The notes beneath the pieces were generated by a model, which saw only the letters and a program-made list of their open reading frames with translations, was not told the origin of the DNA and ran no database searches. DNA of 53,758 bases, from assembly GCA_025965975.1 (NCBI GenBank), contig JAOPVX010000058.1, positions 1-53,758 of the forward strand, written 5' to 3'. Positions 17,779 through 53,758 of the stretch are shown piece after piece; within the stretch, counting starts at the first letter, position 1; the number at the start of each line of letters is the position of its first letter. The DNA is from Mycobacterium sp. Lineage in GTDB: Bacteria; Actinomycetota; Actinomycetes; Mycobacteriales; Mycobacteriaceae. The position numbers and the translations under genes are program-made.

Positions 17779-22134
<4,356 letters not shown>

Positions 22135-22137
<3 letters not shown>

Positions 22138-22233
22138 CACCGGCTGTCTGTTCTTCGCGCGAGCGCTCATCACCGGCTGTCTGTTCTTCGCGCGAGCGCT
22201 CATCACCGGCTGTCTGTTCTTCGCGCGAGCGCT
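22135..22233 (-). repeat. 33-bp tandem repeat, three identical units, at the glnX/glnH junction
   Basis: Three perfect 33-bp units at 22135-22167, 22168-22200 and 22201-22233, followed by a 9-base partial unit (22234-22242). On the gene strand each unit reads ATG AGC GCT CGC GCG AAG and ends CCG GTG, so each encodes MSARAKNRQPV in the glnH frame. The glnX stop TGA overlaps the first ATG (TGATG), and the last unit runs into the glnH ATG. The length is a multiple of three, so copy number changes would keep the frame. Confidence 0.97.
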
Positions 22234-22235
22234 CA

Positions 22236-23555
22236 TCACCGGTACTCGCTAAGCCTCGGCCACAACCCCAGCGCCACCGCCAGCGCGGCGACGACGCTGA
22301 GCACCGCGGCGCCGACCGTCGCACCCGACAGCACCCGGCGCGCGTTGAGGATGTCGTTGCGCAACTGGCTGCGGCTCTCCGCGATGCCTTTGGTCAGCGC
22401 CGTATCGAGCTTGTCGAACGCGGGCGTTGAGTCGTCCTCGCCGGTGCCCAACGCCACCTGGGTGGCGGCCTGGTAGTTGCCGACCCCGATGTAGGCGTTG
22501 ATTCGGTCGTCGGCCGCCCGCCACCGCTTGAGCAGTTGCTCGGCGTCGGCCAGGTCGCTCTTGTCGATCGCGTCGCCGCGGGACAGGTAGTCGGACAGTT
22601 GTTGCTGCATGGTGTCAATGCGTTGGTAGTAGGACTGCTTGCGCACGTCCTCGTCGCCGCGCCGGATCAACGACAGCGTCTCGTCGGCACGCGCCTGCTG
22701 CGCGGTGATCGCGAGGTTCGTCACGGTCTTGAGGGACTCAGCCGCAGTGCCTTTCGCGCTGCGGCTGTCCAACGTCGAGATGACGAGGGCGGTGCCCACC
22801 CATATCAACATAATCAAGACGGCAAGGCCGCCCGCGACAAAGCCGATATTCACTCGGCGGCGAGTCCGGCGCGCAAGCCAGCGGTTAGTGAAGGCACCGA
22901 ACAACAGTGTCGCGAGCACCACGAGAATGACCGGCCCGGGAATCCTCGTCGACGCGGTGGTTTCGGCGTCCACCCGCGAGGAAGTCTCTTCGTAGAGCCG
23001 CTGCGCGTCGGGCAGGATCTGCGTCTGCATCAACGACGACGCCTCGGACAGATACGACGAGCCGACCGGGTTTCCTGCGCGGTTGTTGGTGCGGGCGGTT
23101 TCGACGAGCCCGGTGTACACCGACAATTGGGCGTTGACGCGGCCGAGAAGCTGCACCATCGGCTCGTCGGTCAGTCCGCTTGACGCACGGGTGACCGCCA
23201 CCGACGCGTCGGTGATGGCCTGCTCATAGCGCTGCCGGACATCGCGGGGTTCGGCGCCCGCGATGAACGCGGTTGCCGCCGCGGCGTCGGCCACCGACAG
23301 TGTCGTGTAGAGCTGGCCGGCCGCAAACGATAGCGGCTCGGTGTGGTTGAGAACGGTGGTTAGCGCCTGTTGGCGGTTGTTGATCGTCGTCGACGTGGCA
23401 AACGCGCTGGCGATGACGAGCGCGGACAGGACGACCCCGATGGTCAGGATCCGGCCCGGGGTGGTCCAGAGGAACCACCAGCGCGGGTGCGCTGGTGCTG
23501 TCGGCGACCGCGACGCCAGTGGCTCGGTCGAGGGGTGCGCCAACTCCACAGTCAC
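22236..23555 (-). CDS. glnX: membrane sensor GlnX (Rv0412c-like)
   Basis: A 439-residue membrane protein upstream of glnH and pknG. Membrane segments lie at about 34-54, 207-225, 237-260 and 412-433. The two large loops between segments 1-2 and 3-4 are helical and probably extracytoplasmic, like four-helix sensor domains. Published work in M. tuberculosis and corynebacteria places GlnX between GlnH outside and PknG inside; I identify it by position and topology. The stop TGA overlaps the first ATG of the 33-bp repeat. The GTG/ATG start region faces mutT3. Confidence 0.88.
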   Translation of the reverse strand: MTVELAHPSTEPLASRSPTAPAHPRWWFLWTTPGRILTIGVVLSALVIASAFATSTTINNRQQALTTVLNHTEPLSFAAGQLYTTLSVADAAAATAFIAGAEPRDVRQRYEQAITDASVAVTRASSGLTDEPMVQLLGRVNAQLSVYTGLVETARTNNRAGNPVGSSYLSEASSLMQTQILPDAQRLYEETSSRVDAETTASTRIPGPVILVVLATLLFGAFTNRWLARRTRRRVNIGFVAGGLAVLIMLIWVGTALVISTLDSRSAKGTAAESLKTVTNLAITAQQARADETLSLIRRGDEDVRKQSYYQRIDTMQQQLSDYLSRGDAIDKSDLADAEQLLKRWRAADDRINAYIGVGNYQAATQVALGTGEDDSTPAFDKLDTALTKGIAESRSQLRNDILNARRVLSGATVGAAVLSVVAALAVALGLWPRLSEYR

Positions 23556-24971: not shown

Positions 24972-26047
24972 GTGGGCTCAGGTTCAACTGCCGGCCCGCC
25001 GGCGGGTTCAACTGCCGGCCCGCCGACGGGTTCAACTGCCGGCCCGCCGACGGGATCACTCGCCGTTGTCGGCGGCGGCGTCATCGGGCTTTCGGTCGCG
25101 CGCCGTGCCGCGCTGGACGGTTGGGCTGTGCGTGTGCACAGAGGCGACGAACGTGGCGCGTCGTGGGTGGCCGGTGGCATGCTCGCCCCGCATAGCGAGG
25201 GCTGGCCCGGCGAGGAGCGCCTGCTGCAGTTGGGCTTGGCGTCGCTGGCCCTATGGCACGACGGCTTTCTGGACGGCCTGCCCGACGTCGTCACCGCGCG
25301 CGAATCCCTTGTAGTCGCAATCGACCGCGCCGACGCCACCGACCTGAAGACGGTCGGGGAATGGCTGGCCGCCCAAGGCCAGCCCGTCACGCTGACGTCG
25401 GCCGCCCGCGACATCGAACCGCTTCTGGCACAAGGCATTCGGCACGGATTCGTGGCCGAAACCGAACTCGCGGTTGACAATCGGGCCGTCGTCGAGGCGC
25501 TGGCGGCGCACTGCGAGCGACTCGGCGTGCAGTGGGCACCGCCCGTAGCCGACCTGTCTGAAGCACGGGCCGACACCGTCGTCATCGCCAACGGCATCGA
25601 CGCGCCCGCGTTGTGGCCCGGGCTGCCGATCCGGCCGGTGAAGGGCGAGGTGCTGCGGCTGCGCTGGCGGCGCGGCTGTATGCCGGTGCCGCAGCGCGTG
25701 ATCCGCGCCCGTGTGCATGGCCGCCAGGTGTACCTGGTGCCGCGCGCCGACGGGGTGGTTGTCGGCGCCACCCAGTACGAGCACGGCCGCGACACCGCAC
25801 CAGCCGTGAACGGGGTGCGTGAGCTGCTGGACGATGCATGCGCGGTGGTCCCGGCCCTGGGGGAGTACGAACTCGCCGAATGCGCCGCCGGTTTGCGTCC
25901 GATGACGCCCGACGGGCTGCCGATCGTCGAGCGGCTCGATGAGCGCACACTTGTCGCTGCGGGGCACGGGCGCAACGGATTCCTGCTGGCGCCGTGGACC
26001 GCCGAACGGATCGCGGCCGAACTTAACGTCACGGTGGGAGCGAGTCG

Positions 26048-42794: not shown

Positions 42795-42999
42795 AATAGG
42801 AACCGAGCACCCGAGTTGTGTGGCGAGGTCGGTGATGAGTTTCCAGTGTGCGGATTGGATTTCGTTGACGTAGGCGCCACCGTGCAGATAGATGACGGTC
42901 GTCGCCGGCGCGTGGTTTGTTGCTCCGGCGCGTGGCTTGTTGCTCCGGCGCCTTTAGCTTGCACGCTGTAGACATCGAAAAGTGTCGACGAACGGCAGC
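42792..42999 (-). pseudogene. N-terminal relic of an HSL-type alpha/beta hydrolase
   Basis: On the minus strand the sequence encodes FDVYSVQAKGAGA, then, after a 20-bp duplication that shifts the frame, PATTVIYLHGGAYV and HWKLITDLATQLGCSVPIV. YLHGG is the oxyanion-hole motif of hormone-sensitive-lipase-type esterases. The rest of the enzyme, including the catalytic Ser, is missing; the frame runs straight into the MarR gene at GTG 42794. It looks like a deletion that joined an esterase 5' part to marR. Confidence 0.75.
42906..42945 (-). repeat. 20-bp tandem duplication in the esterase relic
   Basis: CGGCGCGTGGTTTGTTGCTC (42906-42925) is repeated with one change (T to C) at 42926-42945 and begins a third time (CGGCGCC). 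The 20-bp length breaks the reading frame of the relic. Confidence 0.9.

Positions 43000-52119: not shown

Positions 52120-53758
<1,639 letters not shown>

Follow-up and report, generated by a model that had tools for sequence, protein, structure and literature searches.

A widespread short repeat, probably MIRU-like, at stop/start junctions of mycobacterial operons

The repeat array at the glnX-glnH junction

The window (the whole 53,758-nt stretch of DNA that was analysed) carries a glnX-glnH-pknG gene order on its minus strand. The upstream gene is glnX (22236-23555, minus strand, 439 aa), a name taken from the initial annotation, the operon order and PMC6069109; its product matched zero Pfam families at an E-value of 1e-5. 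It is followed by glnH (21181-22137, minus strand, 318 aa from the ATG at 22137), the product of which displays a lipobox-like LSGC motif and a Pfam match to the family SBP_bac_3. The third gene of the operon is putatively pknG, named after the initial annotation and the operon order, and occupies an ORF at 18917-21238 (minus strand) whose true start may be internal. The glnX-glnH-pknG operon and its part in amino-acid sensing via PknG are described in PMC6069109.

Exactly at the stop/start overlap of glnX and glnH, the minus strand displays three identical 33-bp units, each of them ATGAGCGCTCGCGCGAAGAACAGACAGCCGGTG with zero mismatches. Unit 1 (22204-22236), unit 2 (22171-22203) and unit 3 (22138-22170) consist of a 24-nt core, ATGAGCGCTCGCGCGAAGAACAGA, and a 9-nt tail, CAGCCGGTG. 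Tandem Repeats Finder delimited the array at 22134-22242 (period 33, 3.3 copies, 100% matches), with a score of 218, which is the top tandem score of the window. The glnX gene ends in ...TAC CGG TGA, and the A of this stop codon (TGA, 22238-22236) is also the A of the first unit's ATG, so that the two overlap as TGATG. At the other end of the array, unit 3 runs into the glnH ATG. The initial annotation had claimed the three units and both overlaps: the units are confirmed from the sequence and by Tandem Repeats Finder, and both overlaps are likewise confirmed. The 3′ end of glnX reads ...TACCGGTGA, and its CCGGTG recurs at the end of each unit.

All four ATGs, i.e. those of the three units and that of glnH at 22137, are in the GlnH frame, and the ORF starting at 22239 reads (M)MSARAKNRQPV three times over, followed by 17 residues. 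Given this common frame, ribosomes that restart at the glnX stop would make an extended pre-GlnH. Restart at the first ATG would add 33 residues before the signal peptide, and restart at the later ATGs would add 22 or 11. Lipoprotein signal peptidase cuts before the cysteine of the lipobox. As the extra residues precede the lipobox (LSGC), they would be removed together with the signal peptide, and the mature GlnH should be unchanged. Hence, of the extended GlnH proposed by the initial annotation, the in-frame extensions of 33, 22 or 11 residues can indeed be read, while an altered mature protein is not expected.

The full 31-mer is found in its own genome only at the glnX-glnH junction. Meanwhile, the core pattern (up to three mismatches) matched the window four times, against 0.02 matches expected in shuffles, so these matches are beyond chance. 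A second copy of the element, a single unit with a decayed first codon (L220), is located at 52120-52143 (minus strand; core-pattern match at 52120-52141). It lies at the thiC-thiD stop/start junction, with ThiC_Rad_SAM encoded upstream and Phos_pyr_kin downstream. The window had zero matches to Rfam 15 at the gathering score.

The window also holds other tandem repeats. One of them, at 24981-25058, has a 24-bp unit (3.2 copies, 96%) whose sequence is unlike that of the element; it is coding and falls into what is predicted to be the N-terminal part of an ORF adjoining likely thiamine genes. Another, at 42905-42951, has a 20-bp unit (2.3 copies, 96%).

Turnover of the array among relatives

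We compared the junction over 88 unique loci, which comprised 78 GlnH relatives picked by protein similarity alone (two of 80, L048 and L081, were omitted, being without glnX), the window, and nine loci added for carrying the repeat. Among the 78 loci picked blind to the repeat, 27 were filled. Considering all 88, zero units were found in 51 loci, one in 18, two in ten, three in eight and seven in a single locus. These numbers include corrections made by hand: L014 and L066 were set to zero (spurious), L092 and L117 to one, L015 to seven, and L055 to three, the first of which is partly N (two if that one is left uncounted). On the protein tree of these loci, presence changed at least 22 times and unit number at least 32 times, counts that cannot separate gain from loss and that come from a rough tree, which leaves 28 of its 85 inner forks unresolved. 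The copy-number change that the initial annotation had read from the identity of the units is thus borne out over evolution, with a range of 0 to 7 units.

Empty and filled junctions lie close together among these relatives. The closest relatives of the window are L009 (95% identity), with zero units, and L008, with one decayed unit. In the same manner, L049 has two units and L050 and L052 have none, L034 has one and L051 none, and L072 has two and L076 none. Records that bear one species name differ as well, namely those of M. iranicum (three units in L058, two in L072) and of M. peregrinum (two in L049, zero in L050), each record being a separate species of the collection. Variation in unit number was scored between species, with one genome per species. 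The occurrence of empty and filled junctions among close relatives, together with the copying of host bases into the tails (see below), fits insertion, and loss can equally explain the empty sites.

The in-frame arrangement claimed for the window extends to its relatives. Out of 37 filled loci, 33 were scored as open and in frame with GlnH, in contrast to other junctions, where units mostly repeat every 32 nt. The scored ATG follows the unit in L063 and L073, and in L055 it lies after the run of N. In L015 and L117, the glnH start itself seems to come from the last unit, which is partial. The glnX-glnH junctions of L013 and L016 contain another inserted sequence (GTGGGGGTACCGCCC...GCAGGGGGA), which precedes a partial unit and might be a junction repeat of a second kind.

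These comparisons bear on two accounts that would confine the array to this locus. The initial annotation had allowed for an assembly artefact, and the assembly of the window is indeed a draft of 449 contigs in which some arrays are located at contig ends. However, the same junction holds one to seven units in 36 of the 87 loci besides the window, and in one of these (G020) it lies 3 Mb into a contig. Such an artefact, or a fixed and unimportant coding minisatellite of one species, therefore has a practically negligible chance of being the explanation. The initial annotation had also proposed a phase-variation-like dial on the GlnX-GlnH-PknG sensor, by which unit number would set the amount of GlnH or the precursor that is made. 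The perfect identity of the units speaks for such a dial, as does the frame of the filled loci, which is kept although the period is 32 nt in 47 of the 70 multi-unit arrays. Furthermore, PMC2734929 describes another mycobacterial stop-start repeat, located upstream of fpg1, whose length correlated with the level of mRNA. Nevertheless, 51 of the 88 glnX-glnH loci are without a unit, the extra residues precede a signal peptide that is cleaved, and the element occupies dozens of unrelated junctions in its own genome, where 61 arrays were read. A dial specific to this sensor is thus unsupported, and we consider it very unlikely.

A repeat family and its junctions

The element is real and unexpectedly widespread, and the glnH case is one instance of it. 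In its own genome, the core pattern GAGCGCTYGCGCGAAGANNARA gave 116 matches (66 + 50, up to two mismatches), and the reversed-pattern control gave zero. The arrays of this genome were read in 60 regions around most of 100 listed matches out of the 116, and 40 of the 61 lie between two co-directional genes as judged by codon-usage calls. Within the genus, 131 of 198 genomes with a completeness of at least 90% displayed at least one match (up to one mismatch), with up to 79 per genome and one control hit overall. Across the order, tandem pairs turned up in 11 of the 150 genomes scanned, and three of these 11 belong to other genera; the control gave none. A shorter pattern, applied to these three genomes and two picked neighbours, gave 27 (G334), 22 (G374), 6 (G326), 1 and 1 matches, again with zero in the control. 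Arrays reach 19 units, with a period of 32 nt, at a junction outside the genus (L322, G334 C82), and G123 displays at least 22 adjacent unit pairs in one array among the matches listed.

A plasmid or phage origin was rejected, as a 116-bp query searched against 72,556 plasmids and 50,697 phages at an E-value of 0.01 had no match. Single RNA folds of the native sequence alone gave -5.6 kcal/mol for one unit and -34.3 kcal/mol for three, and some RNA structure may exist. A literature search that covered few subscription papers yielded no description of the element, and four 15-mers of the core were unmatched in it. In the draft assembly of G000, contigs C5, C24, C50 and C169 have arrays at their ends, which suggests that short-read assemblies may break at the element and miss some of its copies.

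To describe the unit we used 122 arrays from 120 regions of eight genomes, 52 of them single and 70 with 2-19 units. The regions were picked from the pattern hits listed and are thus a sample, in which the search inflates the conservation of the core. The core is 24 nt long, ATGAGCGCTYGCGCGAAGARSARA, and mostly starts with ATGA, while the tail mostly measures 5-9 nt and is site-specific. Between arrays, tails display 46% identity and cores 87%, the latter figure being inflated because cores were found by pattern. The sites are not all independent, since L197/L272, L236/L274, L268/L298 and L278/L303 are orthologous junctions of two genomes (73-92% over 60 nt upstream). In addition, L194/L195 and L196/L237 are each probably one junction present on two contigs.

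A codon-usage model, for which the window served as training set, was used to call flanking genes, and 119 arrays had enough flank for this. Both neighbours were on the element strand in 81 of the 119 and both were opposite in four (p 1e-19), the remainder being mixed or uncalled; in all, both neighbours were not called co-directional in 38. The upstream gene was on the element strand in 97 of 119. Its stop overlapped the element's first ATG in 69 of 119, of which 47 at +1 (ATGA) and 22 at -2 (TGATG). Among control ATGAG sites from the same regions (n=70), which required longer flanks than the arrays did, 14 were co-directional, 14 were opposite and zero overlapped a stop. Pfam assigned a family to 17 of 18 flanking proteins. 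The host operons are unrelated to each other: their junctions involve, among others, acyl-CoA dehydrogenases, a methylmalonyl-CoA mutase before a B12-binding domain, thiC-thiD, a His_biosynth protein before PRA-CH (hisF-hisI by order), and a response regulator before a HAMP protein.

The tails copy the bases of the host junction. Over 83 sites, TG tails were present at 22 of 22 TG junctions and at 5 of 61 other junctions (Fisher 1e-15). The suffix shared by tail and host had a mean of 3.10 over 79 sites, compared with 2.37 in within-class permutations; the maximum of the permutations was 2.77, and 0 of 10,000 reached the observed value. Four of the 83 sites had been dropped before permuting (L217 and L286, with flank/tail matches of 14 nt, L235 and L277), since they look like remnants of an older upstream unit. 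When the remnant sites were kept, the suffix match was likewise above its permutations. The similarity is partial: at 15 of 79 sites no more than one base is shared, and the match weakens farther out than about -6. At glnX-glnH itself, the host TACCGGTG and the tail have CCGGTG in common. A 32-nt unit can close on either type of overlap with equal ease, and a tail that matches its host is therefore not required by function alone. Target duplication does explain this match. A full duplication of 8-14 nt was rejected, the 14-nt matches of L217 and L286 looking like older-unit remnants.

Slippage into the flank could also yield matching tails, and this would suit an element that is not mobile at all, in which local tandem duplication and slippage build the arrays while gene conversion or shared ancestry spreads the core. 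Unit number differs between species, and whole units are more alike within an array (0.92) than between arrays (0.77), both of which are consistent with this explanation. It is nevertheless unlikely: one core stands at unrelated junctions of one genome with differing flanks, the core is also present in three genomes outside the genus, and an identical 24-nt sequence cannot arise anew each time a junction is duplicated.

The length of the unit is biased with respect to the reading frame. The modal period of the 70 multi-unit arrays is 32 in 47 arrays, 33 in 14, 30 in five, 29 in two, and 24 and 31 in one each, with unit spacings of 24-35 nt. Modulo 3, these periods leave 2 in 49 arrays, 0 in 20 and 1 in one (48:20:1 of 69 when the doubled junction is counted once). 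Since the core begins with ATGA, a unit of 3n+2 closes its own ORF on the next start, one of 3n reads through, and one of 3n+1 runs past that start in a different frame. Units of this last kind are few but do occur, with a period of 31 in L235 and one 31-nt spacing inside the 32-nt array of L305; beyond the 70-array tally, G102 and G079 have one 31-nt spacing each. Relative to the last unit, the frame of the downstream gene (83 sites) was 2 at 61 sites, 0 at 10 and 1 at 12. The period bias is what translated units would show. Selection on frame we can only infer from it, since a duplicated target of 8 or 9 nt would favour 32 and 33 too and could instead account for this preference.

The idea that the unit brings along a portable Shine-Dalgarno sequence was rejected: pairing with the 16S tail was -6.17 in units and -7.05 in shuffled sequences (-5.52 in host flanks; unit versus host p 0.10). 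The 17 nt before the ATGs supplied by units (122 windows) had a purine content of 0.76, compared with 0.57 in 106 host flanks. These results also concern the idea of a domesticated relay cassette, the short ORF of which would deliver ribosomes to the downstream start, or hold them there, with copy number tuned per operon. The near absence of 3n+1 periods, the exact placement at stop/start codons and the arrays of 7-19 units, to which the 22 or more adjacent pairs of G123 can be added, would agree with such a cassette. So would the over-representation of coupled small ORFs (RTGA) in mycobacteria given in PMC4633059. However, the Shine-Dalgarno pairing is no stronger than in shuffled sequences, gain or loss is frequent at a single locus, where 51 of 88 junctions are empty, and the purging of harmful insertions alone would also give the frame bias. 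We therefore regard tuning of this kind as rather doubtful.

Likeness to known repeats and a proposed mechanism

We liken the element to the mycobacterial interspersed repetitive units (MIRUs), which reportedly go back to Supply et al. 1997. MIRUs are described as apparently mobile and as inserting at start codons with an ORF coupled at -4 nt (PMC12548453), and they are given as 40-100 bp long (PMC2734929). The same and further sources give 77 and 53 bp for the MIRUs at senX3-regX3, and 41 locations in H37Rv (PMC12548453, PMC2734929, PMC4213456, PMC2453075). They are at odds on range: in PMC4213456 the senX3-regX3 MIRUs are restricted to M. leprae and the M. tuberculosis complex, while in PMC12548453 MIRUs occur in many mycobacteria.

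Like MIRUs, the element is both dispersed and tandem, with many copies in variable number (for the element, the variation is between species). Also in common are the placement at stop/start codons, the strand of both genes and the coupled short ORF, which for the element correspond to overlaps in 69 of 119 arrays and co-directional neighbours in 81 of 119. The coupling follows the same scheme in 49 of 70 multi-unit arrays, whose 3n+2 units close on the next ATGA or TGATG. The difference is in size, since the unit of the element measures 24-35 nt against the 40-100 bp of MIRUs. The initial annotation had drawn this comparison and had noted that MIRUs are longer, and it was right in both respects as far as layout is concerned. 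A MIRU04 primer pattern was found in 0 of 10 and in 0 of 395 genomes searched. The element may thus be said to work like a MIRU, a likeness that refers to the layout as published.

Based on these findings, we postulate that the element is probably a MIRU-like repeat of very short length, which spreads to stop/start junctions without breaking the translational coupling there. The family, its placement and orientation, the frame bias, the copying of tails and the interspecific gain or loss support this reading. We presume in addition that the element inserts with duplication of its target and grows by slippage, that its units are translated, and that its presence is nearly neutral. The unit sits mainly in one orientation at the stop/start of co-directional genes, with its ATG overlapping the upstream stop. 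Its tail ends at the ATG of the next unit or gene and repeats the last bases of the upstream gene, carrying on the TGATG or the ATGA. A 3n+2 unit closes its own ORF of 10-11 codons on the next start, and a 3n unit reads on in frame. A ribosome restarting at the element would then end on the downstream gene, or in frame with it, so that insertion and changes in copy number would do little harm. No transposase or insertion event was seen for the element.

If this MIRU-like reading holds, a repeat able to enter operons via ribosome re-initiation while leaving them unbroken is present in much of the genus. These operons would constitute a natural repeated experiment on translational coupling, with the same module in many operons and in 0 to about 20 copies. 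The start-codon annotation of many genes would be affected, and the arrays would be candidate typing markers for non-tuberculous mycobacteria. It would also raise the question of what moves a 24-nt sequence that is without a gene of its own. A possible but more tentative proposal is that the element represents a minimal mobile element of an undescribed class, with a length of 24 nt, that inserts specifically into overlapping stop/start codons and duplicates the host overlap. Its whole content would be a start codon, an overlapping-frame stop codon and a short ORF. Each copy would be a working ribosome relay, tolerated by operons, and copy number could reach 20 or more.

Other known systems resemble the element in part. 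It shares with VNTRs and coding minisatellites the perfect short tandem array and the changing copy number, but differs from them in being dispersed (116 core matches in its own genome), with one core and site-specific tails, mostly in one orientation and at stop/start overlaps. The RTGA-coupled small ORFs likewise have a short ORF with a TGA that overlaps the next start; in PMC4633059, those reported stand at the head of leaderless transcripts, and conservation of the protein sequence is not required. In the element, by contrast, one repeated sequence supplies both overlaps, and does so inside operons. MITEs and REP elements are short, are present in many copies per genome and are without a gene of their own, and in these generally known traits the element is like them. 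Unlike them, it displayed no terminal inverted repeat or REP-type hairpin evident by eye, its orientation follows the host genes, and it occupies overlapping codons rather than intergenic gaps.
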